Source: Alphaproteobacteria bacterium
Lineage (GTDB): Bacteria; Pseudomonadota; Alphaproteobacteria; Rhodobacterales; Rhodobacteraceae
DNA: 13,811 nucleotides
Reading direction: 5' to 3'
Assembly (NCBI GenBank): GCA_030424705.1
Contig: JAUHWJ010000009.1
Span: 1 to 13,811, forward strand
Shown here: in pieces, positions 796 to 13,811 of the stretch
Layout: every line of letters begins with the position of its first letter
How positions within the stretch are numbered: position 1 is the first letter of the stretch
The notes under the pieces: model-generated
Told to the model about the DNA's origin: nothing
Seen by the model: only the letters and a program-made list of their open reading frames with translations
Databases searched by the model: none
Made by a program: the position numbers and the translations under genes

Positions 796-2256
796 TCAGA
801 TTGCGGCCTGTTCGCGGATCAGCGAGATCGTAAGGAGCCCGATGATATAGGTCGCGAAGAGCACGAGGAAGACCAGCGCGACGTTCGCCAGCCGGTCCGG
901 TTTGGAGGCATTCTGCGGCGCCGCCGGGCGCACCACCGTCTCGAGATAGAGCGACTGTTCCGCGGCGGAGGCGATCGCCGTCTCCAGCGTCGACAGGGCG
1001 GAGGAATACATCATCTGCGTCGTCGCCTGGTCGACCCGCGCCAGCTCCAGCTCGGAGGAAAGCTGCGCCATGGAGCGGTCGCCCCCCGCGCTCCCGTCGC
1101 CCGTCAGCCGCACCCGGAGGTCGCGGAGCTGCCGTGTCTTGACCTCAAGATTGGTGCGGAGCGGCGTAAACCGGCTGTCGATCGGGTTGGAAGTGATCGT
1201 CTCCAGCCGCGCGATTTCCGCCAGCAACTCGTCGATCTCCGCCTCCAGCGTCACGATCCGGGTCTGGAGCGCGCCCGCCTCGCTCTCGACCGAGAAGATC
1301 GAGAGCTGCTCCTGCACCTCCGCCACCTTCCGCTGCGCATCGCGCAGATCCTCCCGCGCCGCCGCGACATTGGCGCGCGCCATCTCCACCCCGTCATTGC
1401 GGGAGCGTTCGTTGAGCGCGTTCACCAGCTCCTCGCCATAGGAGATGATCGCCTCCGAGAACCGCTTCGCCGCCTCCGGCGTCACACCCACGACCTCGAG
1501 CCGGATGATCCCCTCCGCGCTGTCATAGGAGACCTTGACCTTGCCGGGGCGGATCAGTCCGCCGGCATAATAATCATGCGCCTCGTCCACCGTGGCGTCC
1601 GCGGCGAGGCGGTGGAACTCGTCGATCCGCTCGTCCTGGAAATGGGCGATCCAGCCATGGTCACGGTCCAGCCGTTCGAGGATGTCGCGGCTGAGGATGT
1701 ACTCCTGCAAAGCCACACTGTCCTGGATCGAGCCCGCCCCCCCGAGGAAGGAGCCGAAGATCCCCCCCGGCGCCGTGCTCGTCCCCGATTTGAAGATCAT
1801 CGCGCTCTCGGACACGTACATGTCCGTCGCCTTCTCGTAGTAATACCAGGCGACGGCGCCGGTCGGGATCAGCACGAAGATCATGAAGCGCAGCAGCATC
1901 CCGAGCGCGCGGAGCCTGCGGCGGCGGCGAAGCTCGCCGCGGATTTCCTGCATCCGCGCCTCGCGCGCCGCGCGGGCGAGATCGGGGGGGAAGGCCGCCG
2001 GCCCGGCGCGGAGCGTGGGCGCATGGGCGCCGGCCCGCGCCAGCGCGCCTGCCGCCGCCGGCGGCGCCTCTTCCGCCTCGGGCTCTTCGGGCTCCGCCGC
2101 GCGGCGCGCCGTCTCGCGCGCCGCCTCCTGCCGCGTCGCGTCGTTCGCCGCGGTCAGCGCCGCCTCCTCGATCATCCGGCGCTCGCGCCGCCGCTGCGCA
2201 CGCCGCGCGCGGATCTCCTCCGCCTCGGCCTCCTCGTCCCGCCGGGCCTCATCCAT
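796..2256 (-). CDS. KpsE/BexC/CtrB-like capsule polysaccharide export inner-membrane protein (polysaccharide co-polymerase)
   Basis: Inner-membrane and periplasmic adaptor expected to link an ABC polysaccharide exporter to the outer-membrane channel. The 486 residues run in this order: a long cytoplasmic N-terminus rich in Arg, Glu and Ala (1-115), a first membrane helix (about 116-140, LLRFMIFVLIPTGAVAWYYY), a periplasmic domain starting YVSESAMIFKSG, a heptad-rich coiled coil (about 285-415), the proline motif RPAAPQNASKPDR (443-455) just before the second membrane helix (about 457-480), and a short basic tail. Two flanking helices, a coiled coil and a proline motif before the second helix are the hallmarks of this family. 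Its ATG at 2256 overlaps the end of the upstream KpsT-like gene by 8 nt, which suggests translational coupling. The 115-residue N-terminal extension is longer than in E. coli KpsE. The exact subfamily name is uncertain. Confidence 0.88.
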   Translation of the reverse strand: MDEARRDEEAEAEEIRARRAQRRRERRMIEEAALTAANDATRQEAARETARRAAEPEEPEAEEAPPAAAGALARAGAHAPTLRAGPAAFPPDLARAAREARMQEIRGELRRRRRLRALGMLLRFMIFVLIPTGAVAWYYYEKATDMYVSESAMIFKSGTSTAPGGIFGSFLGGAGSIQDSVALQEYILSRDILERLDRDHGWIAHFQDERIDEFHRLAADATVDEAHDYYAGGLIRPGKVKVSYDSAEGIIRLEVVGVTPEAAKRFSEAIISYGEELVNALNERSRNDGVEMARANVAAAREDLRDAQRKVAEVQEQLSIFSVESEAGALQTRIVTLEAEIDELLAEIARLETITSNPIDSRFTPLRTNLEVKTRQLRDLRVRLTGDGSAGGDRSMAQLSSELELARVDQATTQMMYSSALSTLETAIASAAEQSLYLETVVRPAAPQNASKPDRLANVALVFLVLFATYIIGLLTISLIREQAAI

Positions 2257-2911
2257 AGCTCACCGCCTCCTCGGCGAGGAAGCGCTCCGCCTCCTCCGGC
2301 GCCCCGAAGGTGTGGAGCCGGCTGTCGTCGATCACCGCGATCTGGTGGCAGAAATCCCGCATCTTCTCCGTCGAGCCACCGAGGAACAGGATCGGCGTCG
2401 CGCTCATCTTCTCCCTCAGGATCGGCCCCGCCCGCCCGGCGAATTCCGGGTCGCCCGGCGTCGTTCCCTCCACCACGAGATACATGTCGAAATCCAGCGC
2501 CAGCAGCAGCGAAAGCGAGAGCCGCTTCTGCAATGTGGAGGAATAGGTCTTCACCGGCATGTCCATGTAGCGGCCGATCCGCGCGAGGTCGATGACGAAG
2601 GCCAGAACGTCGTCCGGGTCGAGCCCGTAGATCATCGCGATGTAGCGGCAATTCTCCGCCCCCGACAGGGCGGGAATGAGGCCGCTGACCCCGCCGACCG
2701 GCCAGCTGATCTTGCCATAGCGGTATATCTTCCCGCCATCCGGCTGCTCCGCGCCCATGATGAGGTTCACGAGCGTCGTGATGCCCGCGCGCGGCGGCAC
2801 GACGAGCCCGAAATTCTCCTCGAAATGGGCGGTGAAGGTCGCGTGCGCGATCACCGGCCGCATGCGCCCGCGAAAGTAGAAGGACTTGCTGACATTCTCG
2901 AATTGCAGCAT
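2249..2911 (-). CDS. KpsT-like ABC transporter ATP-binding protein with degenerate nucleotide-binding motifs
   Basis: The overall pattern is that of the capsule-export ATPase KpsT/BexA/CtrD: N-terminus MLQFENVSKSF, a SWPVGG stretch (69-74), SGAENCRYIAMIYGLD (83-98) and the block from YSSTLQKRLSLSLLLALDFD to MYLVVEGTTPGD (123-154). The length, 220 residues, is normal for the family. The catalytic motifs are altered. The Walker A region reads VPPRAGITTL (38-47), with Ile44 where the ATP-binding Lys belongs. Walker B reads YLVVEGT, with Val147 for Asp (Glu148 is kept). The signature lacks its Gly (YSSTLQ), and the His-switch region reads LFLGGST with no His. I infer a protein that folds as an ABC domain but is unlikely to hydrolyse ATP normally; it could be a regulatory or structural partner of an intact KpsT elsewhere. 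The reading frame is open throughout. ATG 2911 has only a weak upstream purine run. Confidence 0.82.
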   Translation of the reverse strand: MLQFENVSKSFYFRGRMRPVIAHATFTAHFEENFGLVVPPRAGITTLVNLIMGAEQPDGGKIYRYGKISWPVGGVSGLIPALSGAENCRYIAMIYGLDPDDVLAFVIDLARIGRYMDMPVKTYSSTLQKRLSLSLLLALDFDMYLVVEGTTPGDPEFAGRAGPILREKMSATPILFLGGSTEKMRDFCHQIAVIDDSRLHTFGAPEEAERFLAEEAVSYG

Positions 2912-2946
2912 CTGCGCCCAGCCCTCGCCCGCCGGCTGTGCGGGAG

Positions 2947-2973
2947 ACTACAATCATGGGCGCCAATTGGCAA
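2947..2973 (-). promoter_or_regulatory. Candidate promoter upstream of the KpsT-like gene, with a 10-bp palindrome
   Basis: The 69-nt gap between the epimerase and the KpsT-like gene is locally AT-rich. On the minus strand it holds TTGCCA (2973-2968), five of six to the -35 consensus, and TGTAGT (2952-2947), four of six to the -10, with a short 15-nt spacer. The perfect palindrome GCCAATTGGC (2962-2971) overlaps the -35. This could give the KpsT-KpsE-kdsA group its own start, but the spacer is suboptimal and the call is weak. Confidence 0.3.
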
Positions 2974-2980
2974 AATCGCC

Positions 2981-4039
2981 TTAATCCGCGCGATACGCCC
3001 CCGCCTTCCAGTCCCACCACCAGGCGACGAAGCGGCGCAACCCCTCTTCGAGCGGCGTGTCGGGGCGAAAGCCGACCTCCTCCATCAACCCGCTCACATC
3101 AGCCCAGGTTCGCTCGACGTCCCCCGGCTGCATCGGCGCAAGCTCGATCACCGCCTTCCGCCCGATCTCCCGCTCGAGGATGGAGACGAGCGCGCCGAGC
3201 CGCTCCATCCGCCGGTTGCCGATGTTGAATACGCGCCAGGGCGCGAAGGAGCGCGAAGGGTCCGGCGCCGACCGGTCGAAATCCGGGTCAGGCGCGGCCG
3301 GGCGGGGGAGGAGGCGGGCGACGCCTTCCGTCACATCGTCGATATAGGTGAAATCCCGCTCCATCCGCCCCTCGTTGAAGAGCCGGATCGGCCGCCCTTC
3401 CGCGATCGCCTCCGCGAAGAGGAAATAGGCCATGTCGGGCCGCCCCCAGGGGCCGTAGACGGTGAAGAACCGGAGCCCCGTGCAGGGCAGGCCGTGCACA
3501 TGCGCATAGGAATGCGCCATCGCCTCGTTCGCCTTCTTCGTCGCCGCGTAGAGGGAGAGCGGATGGTCAACACTCCGTCGCTCGGTGAAGGGCGCCCGCC
3601 CCTCCGCGCCGTAGACGGAGGAGGAGGAGGCGTAGACGAGATGCGCCACCTTCGCCCGTCGGCAGCATTCGAGGATGTTCAGGAAGCCGGTGAGGTTCGA
3701 GGCGCCGTAGGCGGCGGGGTTCTCGATGGAATAACGCACCCCGGCCTGCGCCGCGAGATGGGCGACATATCGCGGCCGCGCCTCCTCGAAGACGCGGGAG
3801 AGCGCTTCGGCGTCCTCCAGCCCCGCCTCGACGAAGCGGAACCCCGCTCGCCCGGCGAGCCGCGCGAGCCGCGCCCGCTTCAGCGAAACGTCATAATAGG
3901 GATTCACGTCGTCATAGCCGACGACGGAAACCCCCGCCGCCAACAGCCGCTCCGCGAGGTGATAACCGACGAACCCCGCCGCGCCCGTGACGAGGACGGG
4001 CTCAGGCCCCAGCGCCGCCGCCCAATCCGCCTCTCCCAC
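2981..4039 (-). CDS. NAD-dependent nucleotide-sugar epimerase, probably UDP-glucuronate 4-epimerase
   Basis: Extended short-chain dehydrogenase/epimerase of 352 residues. It probably interconverts UDP-glucuronate and UDP-galacturonate for capsule or LPS synthesis in the cytoplasm. Visible: the NAD-binding motif VTGAAGFVGYHLAERL (17-32) with GxxGxxG at G19/G22/G25; the substrate-region signature NPYYDVSLKRARL (46-58), characteristic of the UDP-glucuronate epimerase branch; the active-site SSS/VYG (138-144); the YxxxK pair Y164/K168; and FFTVYGPWGRPDM followed by ERDFTYIDDV. The start is GTG at 4039, 3 nt after the nhaA stop, with AAGG about 8 nt upstream. It therefore probably shares a transcript with nhaA. 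Its location next to capsule-export genes and kdsA fits a role in making acidic sugars for the exported polysaccharide. The exact epimerase substrate is inferred from similarity only; dTDP-glucose dehydratase is less likely given the NPYYD motif. Confidence 0.88.
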   Translation of the reverse strand: MGEADWAAALGPEPVLVTGAAGFVGYHLAERLLAAGVSVVGYDDVNPYYDVSLKRARLARLAGRAGFRFVEAGLEDAEALSRVFEEARPRYVAHLAAQAGVRYSIENPAAYGASNLTGFLNILECCRRAKVAHLVYASSSSVYGAEGRAPFTERRSVDHPLSLYAATKKANEAMAHSYAHVHGLPCTGLRFFTVYGPWGRPDMAYFLFAEAIAEGRPIRLFNEGRMERDFTYIDDVTEGVARLLPRPAAPDPDFDRSAPDPSRSFAPWRVFNIGNRRMERLGALVSILEREIGRKAVIELAPMQPGDVERTWADVSGLMEEVGFRPDTPLEEGLRRFVAWWWDWKAGAYRAD

Positions 4040-5528: not shown

Positions 5529-6386
5529 TCAGATCGCCATCTTCCGGCTTTCCTCGATGTAGATTTCCCGGAGCCGCGTCGCGATCGGCCCCGGAACGCC
5601 GCCGCCGATCGCCGCGCCGTCGATCTCCACCACCGGGGTGACAAAGGCGGAGGCTGCGGTGCAGAAGGCTTCGTCCGCGGCCTTCGCCTCCTCGATGGAG
5701 AAGGCCCGCTCCTCGACCTTCATCTGCGCCTCCTTCGCGAAGCGGATCACCGCCGCCCGCGTGATGCCGTGCAGGATCTCGTTGCCGAGATGGCGGGTCA
5801 CGATCGTCCCGCCCTTGACGATCCAGGCGTTGTTCGACGTGCCCTCGTTCACCATCCCGTCCGTCACCAGCCAGGCGTCGTCCTTCCCCTGCGCCTTCGC
5901 CTCCATCTTGGCGAAGGAGGGGAAGAGGAGCTGGACCGTCTTGATGTCCCGCCGCGCCCAGCGCTGGTCCTCCACCGTGACGACCTTGAGCCCGGTCTTC
6001 GCCGCCGGCGCGTTCACGAGGTCCTTCGCCTGGGTGAAGAGCACGATCCCCGGCGTAGCATCCTTCGGCCAGGCGAAATCCCGGTCCGCCGCGCCGCGGG
6101 TGACCTGAAGGTAGATCATGCCGTTTTCCAGCGCGTTCCGCTCGACCATCTGTCGGTGGATCTCGAGGAGTTCGTCATCCGAGCAGGCCGGCTTCATCTT
6201 CAGCTCGGAAAGCGAGCGATGCAGCCGCGCGACATGGCCCGCATAGTCCACCAGCTTGCCGTCGATCACCGAGGTGACCTCGTATACCCCGTCGGCCATC
6301 AGGAAGCCGCGGTCGAAGACGGAGATCTTCGCCTCCTCCTCGGGCACATACTCTCCGTTCACATAGACGATCCGGCTCATGCTCAT
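5529..6386 (-). CDS. dat: D-amino-acid aminotransferase (class IV PLP enzyme)
   Basis: PLP enzyme that moves amino groups between D-amino acids and 2-oxo acids, typically D-Ala + 2-oxoglutarate to pyruvate + D-Glu, in the cytoplasm. The 285 residues show fold-type IV features: VYVNGEYVPEEEAKISVFDRGFLMADGVYEV (8-38) with the conserved DRGF; RDIKT (146-150) with K149 as the probable PLP lysine; and the cofactor block VNEGTSNNAWIV (179-190) with E181 opposite the pyridine nitrogen. LGNEILHGITR follows. The length matches bacterial D-amino-acid transaminases. Branched-chain aminotransferase (IlvE) and aminodeoxychorismate lyase share this fold, but the MVNEGTSNNAWIV and DIKT patterns and the dgcN-dgcA neighbours favour the D-amino acid enzyme. 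Its ATG (6386) overlaps the dgcA stop as ATGA. A second ATG two codons later (6380) is equally possible. Confidence 0.88.
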   Translation of the reverse strand: MSMSRIVYVNGEYVPEEEAKISVFDRGFLMADGVYEVTSVIDGKLVDYAGHVARLHRSLSELKMKPACSDDELLEIHRQMVERNALENGMIYLQVTRGAADRDFAWPKDATPGIVLFTQAKDLVNAPAAKTGLKVVTVEDQRWARRDIKTVQLLFPSFAKMEAKAQGKDDAWLVTDGMVNEGTSNNAWIVKGGTIVTRHLGNEILHGITRAAVIRFAKEAQMKVEERAFSIEEAKAADEAFCTAASAFVTPVVEIDGAAIGGGVPGPIATRLREIYIEESRKMAI

Positions 6387-7357
6387 CCCCAGAGTTCGGG
6401 CGCCGGCGGGTGCACGCCCTGCGCGTCATAGACAAGGCCGGGCCGCCGGTCCCTCGCGAGGAGGAGCGGCCCGTCGAGATCGGTGAAGGCCGCGCCCTGC
6501 GCGGCGAGCACGGCGGGCGCCATGCCGAGGGAGGAGCCGATCATGCAGCCGACCATAACCTTCATCCCCGCCTCGAGCGCCGCCTCGCGAAGCGCCAGCG
6601 CCTCGGTCAGCCCGCCGGTCTTGTCGAGCTTGATGTTGACCATGTCGTACTTGCCGACCAGCCCGGCGAGCGAGGCGCGGTCATGCGCGGCCTCGTCGGC
6701 GCAGACGGGAAGCGGCCTCTCCGCCCCGGCGAGCGGCGCATCCTCCCCCGCCGGCAGCGGCTGCTCCACCACCGCGACGCCGAGGCTGAGGAGCAGCGGC
6801 GCGATCTCCGTATAGAGGTCCAGCGTCCAGCCCTCGTTGGCGTCCACGATCATCGTCGCGCCCGGCGCGCCGCGGCGGACGGCGCGGAGGCGGTCGAGAT
6901 CCTCCTCCCCGCCGCCGAGCTTGATCTTCAGGAGCGGGCGCTGCGCGTTCTCCCGCGCCTTCGCCTCCATCTCCTCCGGGCTCGCAAGCGAAAGCGTGTA
7001 GGCGGTGACCTGCGGCTTCGGCTCGAGCAGCCCTGCCAATTCCCAGGCGCGCTTGCCGGCCCGCTTGGCTTCAAGGTCCCAGAAGGCGCAGTCGAGCGCA
7101 TTCCGGGCCGCGCCCGGCTTCATCTCGGCATTCAAAGCGGCTCGGCTTCCGCCGCCGGCATCGAGCCAGCCCTCGATCTCCGCGATCACGCCTTCCTGCG
7201 TCTCGCCATAGCGGGCATAGGGCACGCATTCGCCCATGCCCCGATGCGCGCCGTCGATCAGCTCGACCGACACCACCTCCGAAACGGTCCTCGATCCGCG
7301 GGAGATGGTGAAGACCCCGGCGATGGGGAAGAGTTCCCGCCGGACCACGCCCCTCAC
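6383..7357 (-). CDS. dgcA: N-acetyl-D-glutamate racemase DgcA (dipeptide-epimerase family, enolase superfamily)
   Basis: Enolase-superfamily enzyme of 324 residues with the architecture of L-Ala-D/L-Glu epimerases. The catalytic pattern is visible: KIK (K144, K146), VDANEGW with D172, VVEQPL with E198, CADEAAHD with D221, and VNIKLDKTGG with K243, the opposing acid-base lysine. GCMIGSSLG closes the barrel. Members of this family encoded directly next to dgcN have been described as racemases converting N-acetyl-D-Glu to N-acetyl-L-Glu in D-glutamate catabolism, and I adopt that name because of the neighbour. On sequence alone it could equally be a murein-peptide (L-Ala-D-Glu) epimerase of the YcjG type. 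The start is GTG at 7357, overlapping the dgcN stop as GTGA; its own stop overlaps the aminotransferase ATG by 4 nt. The three genes are thus translationally coupled. Confidence 0.88.
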   Translation of the reverse strand: MRGVVRRELFPIAGVFTISRGSRTVSEVVSVELIDGAHRGMGECVPYARYGETQEGVIAEIEGWLDAGGGSRAALNAEMKPGAARNALDCAFWDLEAKRAGKRAWELAGLLEPKPQVTAYTLSLASPEEMEAKARENAQRPLLKIKLGGGEEDLDRLRAVRRGAPGATMIVDANEGWTLDLYTEIAPLLLSLGVAVVEQPLPAGEDAPLAGAERPLPVCADEAAHDRASLAGLVGKYDMVNIKLDKTGGLTEALALREAALEAGMKVMVGCMIGSSLGMAPAVLAAQGAAFTDLDGPLLLARDRRPGLVYDAQGVHPPAPELWG

Positions 7358-8349
7358 GGGAGCGCGTCCACCAGCTTGGCCGCGCCGAAGCGGTAGGGGT
7401 CGGTCGCCGGCAGGCCCATCTCGTCCTCAACCTTCGCGAGATAGGCCTTCGCATCGGCCTCGCTCATATGGGCGGTGTTGATGGAGCATGCGATGGAGAC
7501 GCAATCCGGGTTCACCACCCGCGCGAGCGTCTCCGCCAGCGGGCGGAGCGGCGCGAGGCTGGGGGAGGGATAATGCGGCAGGCCGCGCATATGCGTCCGC
7601 GTCGGCTCATGGCAGAGCACGAGATAATCCGGCGCGCCGCCATGCACGAGCGCCAGCGTCACCCCCGAGTAGGAGGGGTGGAAGAGGCTGCCCTGCCCCT
7701 CGATCAGGTCGACATGATCCTGGTCGTTCGGCGGGGTCAGCACCTCCACCGCCCCGGCCATGAAGTCCGCCACCACCGCGTCAAGCGGCACGCCGCCGCC
7801 GGTGATGAGGATGCCGGTCTGCCCCGTGGCGCGGAAGGTCGCCTTCCTGCCCCGCGCCAGAAGCTCCTTCTCCATCGCAAGCGTCGTATACATCTTCCCG
7901 CAGGAACAATCCGTCCCGACGGCGAGCACGCGCTTGCCGCTCCGCATCTTCCCCTCGCCGATCGGGTACTTGAAGACCGGGAGCCGCACGTCGAAGAGCT
8001 GCCGCCCCGTCCGCTGCGCGGCGGCGACGAGCGGCGCCTGGTCCTTCAGAAGCGTGTGGAGCCCGGCGGCGATGTCCATCCCCGCCTCCATCGCTTCGAC
8101 GAGCACGGCCATCCAGGCGTCCGAGATGATCCCGCCCCGGTTGGCGACGCCGATCACCAGCGTCTGCGCCCCGGCGGCGGCGGCTTCGGCCACACTCATC
8201 TCCTTCAGGCCCATATCCGCCTTGCAGCCCGGCAGGCGCAACTGGCCGACCGAGACGTCGGGCCGCCAGTCCTTGATCCCCTGCGCCACCTTGGCGGCGA
8301 GGGCGTCCGGCGCGTCGCCGAGGAAGAGGAGATAGGGCTGTCGCAGCAT
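7354..8349 (-). CDS. dgcN: DUF1611-type D-glutamate N-acetyltransferase DgcN
   Basis: First gene of a three-gene operon. DUF1611 proteins paired with a dipeptide-epimerase homologue have been described as acetyl-CoA-dependent D-Glu N-acetyltransferases, the first step of D-glutamate catabolism. The protein has 331 residues: an N-terminal Rossmann-like part (YLLFLGDAPDALAAKVAQG, with VIGVANRGG at 66-73) and a P-loop-like C-terminal domain with VGTDCSCGKMYTTLAMEKEL (144-163), then TGQTGILITGGGVPLDAV and EGQGSLFHPSYSGVTLALVHG (217-237), followed by CHEPTR (246-251). I choose ATG 8349 because GGAGG stands 5 nt upstream and the conserved N-terminus begins there. An in-frame ATG at 8457 would add 36 residues of no recognisable character that cover the putative promoter. 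It ends by a 4-nt overlap with dgcA. The LysR-type regulator DgcR, often nearby, is not in this window. Confidence 0.88.
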   Translation of the reverse strand: MLRQPYLLFLGDAPDALAAKVAQGIKDWRPDVSVGQLRLPGCKADMGLKEMSVAEAAAAGAQTLVIGVANRGGIISDAWMAVLVEAMEAGMDIAAGLHTLLKDQAPLVAAAQRTGRQLFDVRLPVFKYPIGEGKMRSGKRVLAVGTDCSCGKMYTTLAMEKELLARGRKATFRATGQTGILITGGGVPLDAVVADFMAGAVEVLTPPNDQDHVDLIEGQGSLFHPSYSGVTLALVHGGAPDYLVLCHEPTRTHMRGLPHYPSPSLAPLRPLAETLARVVNPDCVSIACSINTAHMSEADAKAYLAKVEDEMGLPATDPYRFGAAKLVDALP

Positions 8350-8374
8350 CGGGGCCTCCGTGTCGAAAGCCTGA

Positions 8375-8408
8375 ATTCGTGGGTTAACGGCGCTTCGAGT
8401 CAAGCGCC
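8375..8408 (-). promoter_or_regulatory. Candidate dgcN promoter with an inverted-repeat operator
   Basis: On the minus strand TTGACT (8403-8398) is a near-consensus -35 about 50 nt upstream of the dgcN ATG. At 17-nt spacing the -10 position reads ACGAAT (8380-8375), which is weak. The perfect inverted repeat GGCGCTT-6 nt-AAGCGCC (8389-8395 and 8402-8408) overlaps the -35, as an operator or activator site would. Which factor binds is unknown. Confidence 0.38.
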
Positions 8409-8470
8409 GCTGCTGCGCCGCAGCGAAATCGCAACGCGCTTGCGGGGTCGGCGCCAAGACGCGGAGGTTT

Positions 8471-8539: not shown

Positions 8540-8794
8540 TTACTCGTGCTTTCCGAGGCGGGACCACAGCTTCTCCGCTCCTGTCAGGAGCGCGAAGGCG
8601 AAGACGCCCCAGAGGATCAGATCATAGGCGCCGAGCCCAATCATCCGCATCCAGCCGCGCCAGAGGTCCCCGCCCGGCGGGAGGACGCCGAGGAGCGGCA
8701 CCGGCCCCCAGAGCCGGAACGGCCAGAACCGGGAAATATAGGCCAGCGCCAGCGCGAGCAGGAGAAACAGGACCGCGCCGAGGAGACCGCGCAT
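8540..8794 (-). CDS. Small two-helix membrane protein of the Rieske operon
   Basis: I do not recognise a named family. The 84-residue product has a first hydrophobic helix (about 4-22), a Pro/Trp-rich middle (SRFWPFRLWGPVPLLGVLPPGGDLWRGW is the region 21-48) and a second helix (about 52-72), ending in a basic tail (EKLWSRLGKHE). The ATG at 8794 lies 1 nt after the stop of the upstream Cys-motif gene, so the two are almost certainly co-translated. It is the last gene of the four-gene operon. A role as a small subunit or assembly factor of the membrane redox module is inferred from position only. The reading frame is short but is supported by its hydrophobic pattern, its packing and the absence of any competing frame. 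Confidence 0.72.
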   Translation of the reverse strand: MRGLLGAVLFLLLALALAYISRFWPFRLWGPVPLLGVLPPGGDLWRGWMRMIGLGAYDLILWGVFAFALLTGAEKLWSRLGKHE

Positions 8795-8795
8795 C

Positions 8796-9551
8796 TCAGA
8801 GCGCCCTCAGCGTCGCCGGGTCGATCCGGAAGACGAGGAGATCGCCGATCCGTTCGATCTCGCCTTCGACCGAGACATAGGCGGCGGTGAAGGCGAGCGC
8901 CTCCGGCGGGAGCGGCCCGCCCTCCGGCCCGGCCATCAGCAGAAACGTCGCGCCCTCAATCGGCGCCGCAGAGACGAACACGGCCGGAACCCCGCCGGTG
9001 ATGCAGAGATTGGCGCAGGCCTTGTGCGAGAGGCCGCGCCCGGGCCGCATCGCCCCGGCGGCGCATTTCCCGTCGCAGATTTCGCCTTCGAGGCGCCAGC
9101 GCCCGAGCCGTTCGGGAGGGGAGAGCGCGGGCGCATCGCCTTCGGCGGCGGAGAGGTTCCGCTCCCCGCCGCCGATCTGGAGCATGTCGAGATCGCCGCG
9201 CCTCAGGATCACGCCGCCGGCCTTCACGAGTCTCCTGTCAAGCGCGGCGACCTGCGGTGGCGCGAACTTCCCGCCGCCCGACAACATCACCGTCCGCCCG
9301 GCGGCGAGGCGTTCGGAGCCCTCCGTCACCCGGATCACCGGATAGGGATGGAGGGAAAGGACGCCCGTCACCTCCTGCCGCCCGAAATCGAAGCGGAAGC
9401 CGGCCTCGTCCGGCGCCGCCTGGGTGGAGGCCGCGAACCAGCCGGCGACGGCGAAGAGCAGGATCAAAGCCGCGGCGATGGCGGCGAGGAACGGCCGGAG
9501 CCCCGGCGGTATCGGGAAGAAGCCGATGAAGAACTCGTCCCGCGCCCTCAT
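8796..9551 (-). CDS. Membrane-anchored protein with CxxxC and HxxCxxxC signature, uncharacterised
   Basis: The 251 residues have a short cytoplasmic N-terminus, one membrane helix (about 20-41) followed by ASTQAAPDEAG, then a soluble domain predicted to face the periplasm. Its C-terminal half carries GEICDGKC (156-163; C159, C163), GAMRPGRG (166-173), SHKACANLC (175-183; H176, C179, C183) and ITGGVPAVFV, and ends in a strand-rich part closing with LLVFRIDPATLRAL. I have a memory-based impression that uncharacterised proteins encoded beside ferric-reductase/Rieske genes carry a similar GEI-D-KC and H-C-CI-GG pattern; this has not been checked. Four Cys and a His in this arrangement suggest a metal or Fe-S site, or a redox disulfide. 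Its ATG overlaps the stop of the Rieske fusion gene as ATGA and its stop is 1 nt before the next gene. The biochemical function is unknown. Confidence 0.82.
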   Translation of the reverse strand: MRARDEFFIGFFPIPPGLRPFLAAIAAALILLFAVAGWFAASTQAAPDEAGFRFDFGRQEVTGVLSLHPYPVIRVTEGSERLAAGRTVMLSGGGKFAPPQVAALDRRLVKAGGVILRRGDLDMLQIGGGERNLSAAEGDAPALSPPERLGRWRLEGEICDGKCAAGAMRPGRGLSHKACANLCITGGVPAVFVSAAPIEGATFLLMAGPEGGPLPPEALAFTAAYVSVEGEIERIGDLLVFRIDPATLRAL

Positions 9552-10582
9552 CTCGGGGCCTCAAGCGGCTGAACCGGCGTTCCGGGCGGGTTCGCCCGCG
9601 CGTCGATCTCGATCAGCCCGGCGCGGAGCCGCAGCCGATAGGTCGGCACCTTCTCGGTGAAAGGGGCCGGCGAGCATCCGTCATCGACCCGGTACTGGAA
9701 GCCGTGCCAGGGGCAGGTCACGCAGCCGTCCACGACCCGCCCCTCGCCCAGCGGCCCGTTCTGGTGGGCGCAGGCGTTCGAGATGGCGGAGAACCGACCC
9801 TCATGGCGGAAGACGGCCGCCCGCTCGCCCCCGGCGAGCCGGACGACCCGCGCGCGCCCCTCCTCGATCTCCTCCGGCCGGCAGACGGGAACCCACTCTC
9901 CCATAGCCGCCGCGGCCCCCCGCTCCTTCCGCCACGCGGCGAGATGGAGCCCCGCGACGAGGAGCGCGAGCGCCCAGACCAGCGCGGGAAAGGCGAGCCC
10001 CCGCACCCCCTGCGCCGCGCCGAGCGTCACATGCGCGACGACGGCGGCGTAGGCCGGATAGATCAGGTAGTGCAGCGACTTCCAGATCCGCGGCGTCAGG
10101 AACGAGAGCCAGAAGTCATGGCTCGTCGCCGCGAGGATGAGGAGCGCGAGGAGCGCGAACATCCCGAACGCCTCGAACGGGAATCCGAGCGCCCTGTCAT
10201 AGGCCGTATTGGAGAAGAGCAGCGCCTCCCATGAGGGGAGCGGCGTGAAGACGAAGTACCAGTTGAAGACGAAGAGGAAATGGCTGAGCGCAACCAGCGC
10301 CGTCATCACCCCGAAATGCCGGCGGTTGTAGAGGAGCGGCAGGAACCGCCCGTCGAGCCGCGCCAGCGGGCCGATCATCAGGATCACGCTCATCATCAGG
10401 AAGGCGCAGGAGCCGAAGGCCCGGGCGTTGTGGATCGGCGGCGTGATCGGGCTCGCATGGCCGAGCAGGGCCGGGCCAAGCTCGACGAAGATCCAGAGAT
10501 AGAGCCCGACGGCGAGCGCGAGGGCGAGGTTGTAGCGGTGCTTGAATCCGTTCCACTGCACCGGGATGTAGGAGACGCTCAT
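9548..10582 (-). CDS. Ferric-reductase-like transmembrane domain fused to a Rieske [2Fe-2S] domain
   Basis: 344-residue fusion. Residues about 1-216 form a six-helix ferric-reductase-like domain (helices near 18-38, 56-76, 90-112, 135-153, 170-190, 196-215) with His residues suited to b-heme ligation (H101 in ALSHF; H171 and H184 in [17 protein letters not shown]). Residues about 228-334 form a Rieske domain with C271-A-H273 and C290-PW-H293, the full CxH/CxxH ligand set of a [2Fe-2S] cluster. Basic residues (RR at 87-88, RKER at 218-221) place the loop between helices 2 and 3, and the C-terminus, on the cytoplasmic side by the positive-inside rule, so the Rieske cluster is probably cytoplasmic. 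I infer transmembrane electron transfer. The start is ATG 10582, overlapping the upstream stop as ATGA. An in-frame extension to 10759 is Pro/Ala/Gly-rich, overlaps the upstream gene and is rejected. Confidence 0.9.
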
Positions 10583-10992
10583 TCCGGCGCCGCCAGCAGC
10601 ACAGGCGCGCCCGAGGGCGGCGCCTGCCGGATGGCGAGGCCCGCGAGGATCGTGAGCGGGATCAGGACGGCGAGGAGGAGCGCAGCGAAGCCATGCGCCC
10701 GCCGGGGCGGCAGGTGCCGTTTCGCCCAATCGTCCCGCCCCGTCTCCAGGACCAACCAACGCCAGAGGACCAGCGGCCAGATCAGCAGGACGCCGGGGAT
10801 CAGCAGCGGGCGGAAAATCCAGGCGCCGCGAGCGTTCGGCTCCACGCGCCCGACGCCCCAGAGCAGGAACGGGACGGACACGACCGCTCCGGCCCAGAGC
10901 CAGAGGCGGGCGAGATCGATGAGAAGGGCGGCGGTCTGCACGACGATGATCCTCGCTACTCGGTTGCTCATAGCCGCCGCGGGCGACAGCAT
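10579..10992 (-). CDS. Small three-helix membrane protein, first gene of the Rieske operon
   Basis: I do not recognise the family. The 137 residues contain three probable membrane helices (about 29-50, 60-82 and 100-122), separated by [13 protein letters not shown] and by a basic loop [19 protein letters not shown] (83-101), followed by a short Ala/Pro-rich tail. It ends in a 4-nt ATGA overlap with the ferric-reductase/Rieske gene, so it is the promoter-proximal member of the operon. A role as a subunit or assembly partner is inferred from coupling only. The start is uncertain: ATG 10992 has a GGAAA-like purine run about 10 nt upstream and is used here; ATG 10971, seven codons later, has no ribosome-binding site but begins closer to the hydrophobic part. 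Confidence 0.75.
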
Positions 10993-11023
10993 GATGTCAC
11001 GTTTCCATCAGCGCCGCGCTCGC

Positions 11024-11054
11024 TTTTCCTGAGGCCGCCGAAGGGTTATACCCT
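11024..11054 (+). promoter_or_regulatory. Candidate ilvD promoter with a palindrome in the divergent intergenic region
   Basis: The 93-nt region between the Rieske operon and ilvD must hold both divergent promoters. AGGGT-TAT-ACCCT (11042-11054) is a perfect palindrome that contains TATACC on the plus strand and TATAAC (five of six to -10) on the minus strand. For ilvD the -35 position at 17-nt spacing reads TTTTCC (11024-11029), a weak match. Transcription from here would give ilvD a leader of only about 28 nt, too short for peptide-mediated attenuation. One regulator bound at the palindrome could affect both directions. Confidence 0.35.
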
Positions 11055-11085
11055 CGGGCAAAAGCCACGCCCCGGAGGACGCCAG

Positions 11086-12966
11086 ATGCCCGAATACCGC
11101 TCCCGCACCACCACCCACGGCCGCAACATGGCTGGCGCCCGCGCGCTCTGGCGCGCGACCGGCATGGGGGAGTCCGATTTCGGCAAGCCGATCATCGCCA
11201 TCGCTAATTCCTTCACGCAGTTCGTGCCCGGCCATGTCCACCTCAAGGACCTCGGCCAGATGGTGGCGCGCGAGATCGAGAAGGCGGGGGGCGTCGCCAA
11301 GGAGTTCAACACCATCGCCGTGGATGACGGGATCGCGATGGGGCATGACGGGATGCTCTATTCCCTGCCGAGCCGGGAGATCATCGCCGACAGCGTCGAA
11401 TACATGTGCAACGCCCATTGCGCGGACGCGGTGATCTGCATCTCGAACTGCGACAAGATCACGCCCGGAATGCTGATGGCGGCGATGCGGCTCAACATTC
11501 CGGCGATCTTCGTCTCCGGCGGGCCGATGGAGGCGGGCAAGGTCATCCTCGACGGGACGGAGCGGAAGGTCGACCTCGTCGACGCGATGATGAATGCGGT
11601 GAACCCCAACGTCTCCGAGGCGGACAGCGAGAAGACGGAGCGGAGCGCCTGCCCGACCTGCGGCTCCTGTTCCGGCATGTTCACGGCGAACTCGATGAAC
11701 TGCCTCACCGAGGCGCTGGGCCTCGCGCTGCCGGGGAACGGCTCCACGCTCGCCACGCACGCCTACCGGAAGGAGCTCTTCCTCGAAGCGGCGCGGACGA
11801 TCGTGTCGCTCGCCCGCCGCTGGTACGAGCAGGACGACGTGACGGCGACGCCGCGGGGCATCGCGAATTTCGAGAGCTTCGAGAACGCGATGACGCTTGA
11901 CATCGCGATGGGCGGGTCGACCAACACGATCCTCCACCTCCTCGCCGCGGCGCGGGAGGGGGGGGTGCCCTTCACGATGGACGATATCGACCGGCTTTCG
12001 CGCCGGGTGCCGCATCTCTCCAAGCTCGCGCCCTCGACCTCCGAGTATCACATGGAGGATTTCCACCGCGCCGGCGGCATCATGCGGCTGATGGGGGAGC
12101 TGGACCGGCTGGGGCTGATCCATCGGGACCGGCCGACGGTCCATTCGAAGACCTACGCCGAGGCGCTGGAGAAGTGGGACGTGCTGCGGAACCCGGCGCC
12201 CGAGGTGCTGGAATTCTTCCGCGCCGCGCCGGGCGGGGTGCGGACGACGGAGGCGTTCAGCACCTCCAACCTCTGGAAGGACCTCGACCTCGACGGGGAA
12301 AAGGGCTGCATCCGGAACGGGGCGCACGCCTATTCACAGGATGGCGGGCTCGCCGTCCTTTACGGGAACATCGCGGAGGACGGGTGCATCGTGAAGACGG
12401 CGGGGGTGCCGGAGGAATGCCTCGAATTCACCGGCAAGGCGATCGTGTTCGAGAGCCAGGACAGCGCGGTGAAGGGCATCCTCGGGAACAAGGTGAAGCC
12501 CGGAGACGTGGTGGTGATCCGCTATGAGGGGCCGAAGGGCGGGCCGGGGATGCAGGAGATGCTCTATCCGACCTCCTACCTGAAGGCGGTGGGGCTCGGG
12601 AAATCCTGCGCCCTCATCACGGACGGGCGGTTCTCCGGCGGCTCCTCCGGCCTCTCCATCGGGCATATCTCGCCTGAGGCGGCGCTCGGCGGGGCGGTCG
12701 GGCTGATCGAGGACGGGGACGAGATCCGCATCTCGATCTCGGGGCGGAGCCTCAGCCTCAACGTCTCCGACGCCGTGCTGGCCGAGCGGCGGCGGGCGAT
12801 GGAGGCGAAGGGGGCGGCGGCGTGGCAGCCCGTGGAGGTCCGGCCCCGGAAGATCACCCCCGCGCTCAAGGTCTTCGCGGCCTTCGCGACCTCGGCCTCC
12901 GAAGGGGCGGTGCGGGACGTGGACGGGTTCCTCGCGGCCCGGACAAGGAGCCTCGCGGCGGAGTGA
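11086..12966 (+). CDS. ilvD: Dihydroxy-acid dehydratase
   Basis: Dehydrates 2,3-dihydroxy-isovalerate and 2,3-dihydroxy-3-methylvalerate to the 2-oxo acids, the third common step of valine and isoleucine synthesis; its valine product also feeds leucine and pantothenate. At 626 residues it is close to E. coli IlvD (616). The key positions even share E. coli numbering: Mg2+-binding D80/D81 region ([13 protein letters not shown]), C122-D123-K124 (SNCDK, with the carbamylated Lys), and C195 in [27 protein letters not shown] near the N-terminus and [21 protein letters not shown] near the C-terminus are also conserved. The N-terminus [27 protein letters not shown] is the IlvD type, not 6-phosphogluconate dehydratase (Edd). 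ATG 11086 follows GGAGG (11074-11078) with a 7-nt spacer. It is the only plus-strand gene in the window and stands alone, divergent from the Rieske operon and convergent with the TPR gene. Confidence 0.97.
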
Positions 12967-13247: not shown

Positions 13248-13811
13248 TCAGCGGGCGCGGGCCGCCGCAAGGTTCTGGCGCGCCGCTTCGAGAAACGGTT
13301 CGTCCCCCGGCAGCAGCCGGCCGCCCGCCGCTTCCCGCTCCATGATCGCCACCACCTCCGCCCAGTGCGCCGCCGCGTTCGCCTCGTCGAGCCCGGCCAT
13401 GCGCCAGAGCGAAACCCAGACATCCCGCGCCCAGCCCGCATTGCCCGGATCGCCCGCGGCGAGATCGCGGGCGATGGCGAGCGACTCCTCATAGGCCGCC
13501 AGCGCCCCCGCCCGGTCCCCTTCCGCGACGCGGACGTCGCCGATCTTGTTCCGGCTCACCGAGACGTCCCGCGCCCAGCCCGCATTCCCCGGATCGCGCG
13601 CAGCGAGAGCGCGACGGATGGCGAGCCCCTCCTCATAGGCCGCCAGCGCCCCCGCCCGGTCCCCTTCCGCGACTCGGACGTCGCCGATCTTGTTCCGGCT
13701 CACCGAGACGTCCCGCGCCCAGCCCGCATTCCCCGGATCGCGCGCGGCGAGAGCGCGGCGGATGGCGAGCCCCTCCTCGTAGGCTTCCAGCGCCCCCGCC
13801 CGGTCCCCTTC
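13248..13811 (-). CDS. TPR-type tandem-repeat protein, N-terminus outside the window
   Basis: The reading frame is open to the right edge and gives 187 residues of the C-terminal part. It is made of 48-residue units of the form EGDRAGALAAYEEGLAIRRA ... LAARDPGNAGWARDVSVS ... RNKIGDVRVA, each resembling one TPR helix pair plus a connecting turn. Two and a half units are visible. The last is diverged (EESLAIARDLAAGDPGNAGW, then WVSLWRMAGLDEANAAAHWAEVV) and is followed by a capping segment ending in FLEAARQNLAAARAR. Such units are typical C-terminal sensor or scaffold arrays of large alphaproteobacterial proteins, in which N-terminal STAND-NTPase, TIR, CHAT or protease domains can occur. Which, if any, is present here cannot be seen. 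The GTG at 13703 is not a true start because the repeats continue upstream of it. Confidence 0.82.
   Translation of the reverse strand, partial: EGDRAGALEAYEEGLAIRRALAARDPGNAGWARDVSVSRNKIGDVRVAEGDRAGALAAYEEGLAIRRALAARDPGNAGWARDVSVSRNKIGDVRVAEGDRAGALAAYEESLAIARDLAAGDPGNAGWARDVWVSLWRMAGLDEANAAAHWAEVVAIMEREAAGGRLLPGDEPFLEAARQNLAAARAR
13521..13808 (-). repeat. Direct tandem 144-bp repeats within the TPR gene
   Basis: Positions 13521-13664 and 13665-13808 are adjacent 144-bp copies that differ at six positions by my count (138 of 144 identical). A third, more diverged copy lies at about 13377-13520, where only the half nearer 13520 stays close. The unit equals 48 codons, so gain or loss of a copy keeps the frame. 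Near-identity at DNA level, including third positions, points to recent duplication or ongoing recombination. Confidence 0.85.

Follow-up and report, generated by a model that had tools for sequence, protein, structure and literature searches.

An Apparent Membrane Redox Module of Four Linked Genes Built around a Ferric-Reductase/Rieske Fusion Protein in Alphaproteobacteria

The 13,811-nt stretch analyzed here (the window; contig JAUHWJ010000009.1 of assembly GCA_030424705.1, from an alphaproteobacterium of the family Rhodobacteraceae) carries on its minus strand, from 10992 to 8540, four open reading frames (ORFs) that we refer to as P1–P4 (table 1) and that encode a protein in which a ferric-reductase-type heme domain is fused to a Rieske domain (P2), a Cys/His protein (P3), and two small membrane proteins (P1 and P4). 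An earlier reading of this DNA from its letters alone (hereafter, the sequence-only reading) had described four minus-strand genes joined by two ATGA overlaps and a 1-nt junction, and this arrangement is confirmed: P1 and P2 share ATGA at 10582–10579, P2 and P3 share ATGA at 9551–9548, and a 1-nt gap at 8795 separates P3 from P4. An alternative in-frame ATG near 10970 is a possible start for P1.

Table 1. Positions of the module genes and of the P2 Rieske domain in the window
Feature	Position	Strand	Description
P1	10579..10992	minus	137 aa; membrane protein, three or four helices; without known family
P2	9548..10582	minus	344 aa; six-helix ferric-reductase/YedZ-type heme domain and C-terminal ferredoxin-type Rieske [2Fe-2S] domain
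P2 Rieske domain	9638..9898	minus	ligand motifs CAH and CPWHG
P3	8796..9551	minus	251 aa; N-terminal transmembrane helix and two OB-like domains, Cys/His motif in the second
P4	8540..8794	minus	84 aa; two-helix membrane protein

A scan of genome contigs gave 300 places encoding P3 relatives, of which the best 80 were kept. These 80 loci (designated L) are not independent samples because many are closely related and some coincide with contigs of the genomes (designated G) surveyed below. P1 is encoded in 77 of them, P2 or a piece of it in all 80, and P4 in 77, and the order P1-P2-P3-P4 on one strand is kept in 74. Among the exceptions, L038 and L104 are truncated by the start of their records, P2 is in pieces and P1 undetected in L030, P4 is undetected in L029 and L060, and in L064 P4 is likewise undetected and the order is upset by an over-long P2 ORF. 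A 95%-identical relative (L027) has P1–P4 in unchanged order. The cultured marine relatives Tateyamaria omphalii (L094) and Actibacterium mucosum (L042) also have the locus. The 4-nt overlap of P1 and P2 recurs in 73 of the 75 loci in which it was measured, and between the window and its near relative G001 the differences in P1, P2, and P4 fall mostly at third codon positions (P3 was left out because its alignment is gapped). Given the recurring overlap, the kept order and strand, and the third-position differences, P1–P4 are not chance ORFs; chance ORFs or antisense artefacts were also rejected in view of the P3 relatives across genomes, the kept gene order, and the co-distribution of P2 and P3.

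This co-distribution was determined in two genome sets that overlap in two members (G000 and G157): 199 genomes of the family, representing 198 genera, and 241 genomes of the class. Using e value thresholds of 1e-3 for P3 and 1e-30 for P2 in the family set, we found P2 and P3 in the same 18 genomes, and by coordinates the two are adjacent in all 18 (in G296 a TGA is flagged within the P2 match). In the class set, P3 matches are found in 14 genomes, comprising 13 full-length sequences and a short relative in G090, and P2 is also found in 14; both are present and adjacent in 13 genomes, G210 having P2 without P3. The conserved-neighbourhood check proposed with the sequence-only reading thus yields a nearly perfect co-occurrence, the opposite of the outcome that would have refuted that reading. 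Among titles and abstract openings in the open-licence literature, we found no description of the module or of the Rieske-fused partner enzymes introduced below. P1–P4 constitute a tightly linked and apparently undescribed membrane redox module.

P2 matches the Pfam models Ferric_reduct (residues 57–181, 4.2e-11, 43.4 bits against a cut-off of 28) and Rieske (residues 229–315, 1.6e-18), its hydropathy profile has six transmembrane (TM)-like segments, and an AlphaFold2 (AF2) model (mean pLDDT 74.6, pTM 0.69) consists of six long helices and a beta domain; all three agree with the six-helix ferric-reductase-like domain fused to Rieske that had been read from the sequence. R87, H89, H101, H171, H184, and the Rieske ligands are kept in every row of a 29-row alignment. 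The motifs NRRHxG-x9-H, WKxxH-x12-H, and CxH..CPWHG are present in 75 of the 75 full-length P2 sequences among the 80 loci, a count that leaves out five partial sequences (L038 and L104, truncated where their records begin, and L030, L060, and L075, in pieces). Arg87 precedes His101 by 14 residues, His171 and His184 form the second His pair (H-x12-H), and H89 is an additional invariant His. In YedZ (MsrQ), the heme signature consists of an Arg that substitutes for the first heme His and of three subsequent His, according to passages of PMC3591440, and this signature (Arg plus three His, TM3/TM5) is likewise present in all 75 full-length P2 sequences. No MsrQ model is among the NCBIfam matches of P2 at an e value of 1, the presence of such a model in the library being unconfirmed. 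Cys59 is the sole Cys in the membrane helices of P2, which lack the intramembrane Cys pair of a CcdA/DsbD-type thiol relay; the cysteines of P3 are in its outer domain. Of the MsrQ-MsrP or CcdA-type logic suggested earlier, the MsrQ likeness holds through the Arg-plus-three-His pattern, and the CcdA analogy is less supported.

The ligand pattern of the P2 Rieske domain (CxH...CxxH) is that of low-potential Rieske ferredoxins, and its best structure and sequence matches are oxygenase ferredoxins. Rieske proteins of the bc1/b6f type carry an extra Cys in each ligand loop, which together form a disulfide; this second Cys is absent from the P2 loops CAHQNG and CPWHGF. Foldseek comparison of the P2 model gave a CarAc-type Rieske ferredoxin as best match (1.3e-5), and NOX2 (2.1e-3), STEAP2 (2.4e-3), NOX5 (within 2e-3 to 4e-3), and STEAP1 were also matched. 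The FAD/NADPH dehydrogenase domain of the long form of NOX/FRE proteins is absent, as Pfam and NCBIfam give Ferric_reduct and Rieske only. Identity of the fusion with a characterized respiratory or oxygenase component, which would have refuted the sequence-only reading, was rejected because the PDB search matches these proteins by the Rieske part only. The loop charges of P2 favour a cytoplasmic location of the Rieske domain, and together with the resemblance of the P2 model to STEAP, NOX, and CarAc-type ferredoxin they support the topology proposed earlier, with the Rieske cluster in the cytoplasm and the Cys domain of P3 in the periplasm.

Two variants of the P2 gene deserve mention. In L051 (4834–6669), P2 and P3 form a single 611-aa ORF with all motifs. 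The fusion may be natural or may result from a slip in sequencing; because a slip of one base at the junction could produce the single ORF, it is suggestive at most. In a same-genus genome, P2 lies in pieces beside P3 and P4 at L030:4800-6402 and G003:C138:15972-16402, probably one and the same place, reflecting decay or an assembly fault.

P1, P3, and P4 match no Pfam or NCBIfam family above cut-off. The only cysteines of P3 are at positions 159, 163, 179, and 183; it also has His176 and His68, and the cysteines form with His176 the motif C-x3-C-x12-H-x2-C-x3-C. The Cys/His motif is found in 37 of the 37 rows of alignment A1 and in 79 of the 80 loci, and the ORF of L099, the one locus without it, is shortened. 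Among the aligned relatives, the six that diverge most have Val or Ile at the position of C159, and the conserved core therefore consists of C163, H176, C179, and C183. The anchor described in the sequence-only reading stands, and its CxxxC/HxxCxxxC motif is less supported as a five-ligand site. Hydropathy indicates segments at residues 7–44 and also at 178–196, and the AF2 model (mean pLDDT 85.2) has one long helix (16–43) and strands within 58–135 and 147–243. The N-terminal anchor is without a twin-arginine motif, and P3 is membrane-anchored and probably located in the periplasm. P1 in its 137-aa form has four TM-like segments; it had been read as a three-helix membrane protein, and its membrane character is upheld while the number of helices, three or four, depends on the start codon used. 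It has a conserved stretch, FRxL..P.....WP....RW, with F60, R61, L63, P66, W72, P73, R78, and W79 in 78 of 78 aligned sequences. The two helices attributed to P4 are seen as two TM-like segments, and its conserved stretch is YxSRFW..LW (Y19, W24, W29, G42, W62, and L70 in 78 of 78 aligned sequences).

Profile searches with alignments A1 and A3 additionally found short proteins that share the Cys/His motif of P3. All 11 loci with short matches in those searches encode the short protein beside a second small protein and an SCO-like gene. This three-gene cassette (a short DTWC...H..C...C protein, a second small Cys protein, and an SCO-like protein) is located at L185:4985-6701 (G000:C570), which is in the window's own genome, and in L152, L153, L154, and L186–L192. 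The four SCO-like genes tested all match SCO1/SenC, and the first two proteins of the cassette match no Pfam family above cut-off where tested. An hhalign comparison of the P3 and short-protein profiles gave a probability of 97.6 and an e value of 2.8e-12 over 93 columns, and the shared motif, D-x2-C ... H-x2-C-x3-C-x2-GG, corresponds in P3 to D160, C163, H176, C179, C183, and G186-G187. Short proteins with an e value below 1e-60 are encoded in 21 of the 199 family genomes, including 11 of the 18 that are P2/P3-positive (P 2e-8), the SCO neighbourhood having been inspected in a minority of the 21. SCO proteins handle copper and thiols; given this property and the relation of the P3 domain to an SCO-linked protein, we propose a copper or thiol role for P3.

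Two proteins with a Rieske domain of their own are recurrent neighbours in the 80 loci, and we label the Rieske plus Glu_synthase protein GLT and the Rieske plus TPP-enzyme protein TPP. Among loci with enough sequence, the gene immediately upstream of P1 encodes GLT in 38 of 74 and the one immediately downstream of P4 encodes TPP in 32 of 73, each on the strand of the module; 24 loci have both flanking genes. In L028, L052, L064, L088, L098, and L099, a nearby TPP gene occupies a different position or the opposite strand, and GLT and TPP are adjacent to each other away from the module in G004, G358, G396, and G357. Near-full-length TPP orthologs are encoded in 11 of the 199 family genomes, 10 of which are P2/P3-positive (hypergeometric P 2e-11), and full-length GLT in 16, also with 10 positive (hypergeometric P 1e-8), both values being uncorrected for ancestry. 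The TPP count leaves out weaker matches without the Rieske part (G357, G362, and G433), and the GLT count leaves out two sequences from genomes without P2/P3, one of them split (G408) and the other a piece at the end of a contig (G405). Neither these enzymes nor the SCO link figured in the sequence-only reading, both being visible only in other loci.

The best PDB matches of the TPP catalytic core are to Escherichia coli PoxB (3eya and 3ey9, 3e-67). PoxB has a C-terminal membrane/ubiquinone-binding tail; the match to 3ey9 ends at residue 528 of 572 and the query four residues later, and TPP therefore lacks this peptide. The top NCBIfam models for TPP are pyruvate oxidase/dehydrogenase with scores under the curated cut-offs, and acetolactate synthases follow close behind, so that the substrate assignment is unproven. 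In G210 (L155:5204-7384), the P2 relative without P3 is followed by a further fusion, of Rieske and FMN_red. A GLT relative with about 70% identity (L193:6548-8086) has an N-terminal CDGSH iron–sulfur (Fe-S) domain, identified by Pfam, in place of Rieske, and the GLT relatives in L194 and L195 have a CDGSH-like head as judged by eye. Judging from these sequences, the GLT-type flavoenzyme would be one with exchangeable Fe-S heads (Rieske or CDGSH). A Na_H_Exchanger gene often adjoins GLT (L196:9661-10911; upstream of GLT in several loci).

In the window itself, the upstream neighbour of the module is an ORF in the opposite direction, on the plus strand (10693–12966 with the longest start), which we take to be an IlvD-type dehydratase. 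The minus-strand genes that follow the module (5529–8457) presumably belong to a D-amino-acid/dipeptide set (DgcN/DgcA-like genes and a D-amino-acid aminotransferase), and 796–4039 presumably holds capsule-export-like ABC genes and a sugar-nucleotide epimerase. The ORF at 13248–13703 contains near-identical internal repeats that look TPR-like by eye.

The reading that we favour, and to which we give about an even chance, is that P1–P4 form a membrane complex that acts as an electron conduit from the cytoplasm to a copper or thiol site in the periplasm, with TPP and GLT among the donors where they are present. The C-terminal Rieske cluster of P2 would accept electrons from a cytosolic donor and the YedZ-type heme or hemes would pass them across the membrane, in keeping with the outward electron flow from the cytosol that PMC3591440 describes for FRE and NOX proteins. 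P3, anchored beside P2, would take up the electrons at the Cys3His site of its outer OB-like domain. This site would most likely be of the copper or thiol kind that works alongside SCO proteins, and P1 and P4 may be small structural subunits. The candidate donors, where encoded, are the PoxB-like TPP enzyme that ends before the PoxB membrane tail and the glutamate-synthase-like enzyme, each with its own Rieske head. Several observations weigh against the donor part of this proposal. TPP is missing from 8 of the 18 P2/P3-positive family genomes and full-length GLT from 8 of the 18, and neither was found in the window's genome (66.6% complete) or in G001 (99% complete), whose ten listed Rieske matches are P2, six ring-hydroxylating-type oxygenases, a Rieske-only protein of 121 aa (L210:1652-1287), and two proteins of 214 and 223 aa. 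Because positive genomes such as G001 are without both enzymes, the four-gene core can exist without them.

More speculatively, the module could be a Rieske-wired membrane hub, an extension of the conduit proposal that we advance tentatively and think somewhat unlikely. Pyruvate-oxidase-like, glutamate-synthase-like, and FMN-reductase-like flavoenzymes would each have gained the same kind of plug, a Rieske head, and would dock on P2 by Rieske-to-Rieske transfer, sending electrons across the membrane to P3 and by-passing quinone and NAD(P)H; the oxidase would have swapped its membrane tail for an iron–sulfur plug, and in lineages like that of the window a different donor, such as a free Rieske ferredoxin, would be used. 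If the flanking fusions are true donors, central enzymes feed the membrane directly via iron–sulfur heads, a wiring that we know of in no named system. The four-gene module is a defined target for finding the function of such conduits, and the relation of P3 to SCO-linked proteins is a testable lead toward copper or thiol chemistry.

The same relation of P3 to an SCO-linked protein also suits another explanation, in which P2 and P3 are an assembly or repair reductase for cuproenzymes (e.g., cytochrome oxidase CuA) that maintains periplasmic thiols or copper in the reduced state for SCO-type chaperones; the module would then not be respiratory and the flanking enzymes would be incidental. The over-representation of the short protein in P2/P3 genomes (11/18 vs. 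21/199) and the frequent occurrence of P2/P3 without TPP and GLT, as in G001, agree with this explanation. We nevertheless regard it as unlikely, given that 7 of the 18 positive genomes gave no match to the short protein, that P3 is absent from 181 of the 199 family genomes, where cytochrome oxidases are presumably common, and that the Rieske-fused neighbours are left unexplained. The P3 site could instead hold an Fe-S cluster, P3 being a plain periplasmic electron carrier, as three Cys and one His are able to ligate [2Fe-2S] in the manner of mitoNEET. Exported Fe-S proteins usually need the twin-arginine (Tat) route, and such clusters are rare in exported proteins that lack a Tat signal; because the P3 anchor is without this signal, a cluster in P3 is disfavoured and we judge it improbable.

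Other alternatives concern P2. Its Ferric_reduct match and the Foldseek matches of its model to STEAP2 and STEAP1, along with the ferric and cupric reductase activity of STEAP members described in passages of PMC3591440, would fit a STEAP/FRE-like ferric or cupric reductase for metal uptake in which P3 merely binds metal. This seems rather improbable to us, since no iron or copper importer is among the few recurrent neighbours identified, most neighbour clusters being unannotated. We find it very improbable that P2 donates electrons, as MsrQ does, to a molybdoenzyme (MsrP) whose gene lies elsewhere. Although P2 has the YedZ signature and Oxidored_molyb matches are present in 19 of the 19 P2/P3 genomes searched, no Oxidored_molyb (PF00174) match adjoins P2 in these genomes; the nearest is about 3 kb beyond a flanking GLT in G272, the contigs being fragmented and the distance not always measurable. 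Moreover, on another contig of G004 a separate weak match to a ferric reductase domain (FRD; 1e-4) adjoins an Oxidored_molyb match. MsrQ proper was rejected for P2 because no Oxidored_molyb match adjoins it in the 19 genomes.

Parts of the conduit proposal resemble known systems to differing degrees. The catalytic part of TPP is like PoxB in its matches to 3eya and 3ey9 and differs from it in carrying an N-terminal Rieske domain and ending before the membrane tail. The second domain of P3 is related to the short protein of the SCO1/SenC cassette, whereas that protein has a single domain with a signal-peptide-like start, and we noticed no FRD protein as a neighbour of the cassette in these 11 loci. 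An FRD-Rieske architecture is on record in passages of PMC3591440 and PMC5676040; the former lists Rieske among the domain extensions of bacterial FRDs (model M4) and names FMN for the same model, which may therefore differ from the P2 protein, and its passages on M4 do not mention P1, P3, P4, or the flanking Rieske enzymes. As of 2013, YedZ (MsrQ) was the only characterized bacterial one-domain protein of ferric-reductase type, according to passages of PMC3591440. Both MsrQ/YedZ and STEAP are like P2 in having a six-helix heme domain, in which Arg replaces the first heme His and three His follow, and in transmembrane electron transfer, and MsrQ also has a periplasmic partner protein. P2 differs from both in its C-terminal cytosolic Rieske domain, its partner is the Cys/His OB-like protein P3 rather than the molybdoenzyme MsrP, and the module adds two small membrane proteins, P1 and P4, to what is found in MsrQ/YedZ. 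The module is a tightly linked relative of known systems for FRD-type transmembrane electron transfer, from which it differs in its cytosolic plug and its periplasmic partner.

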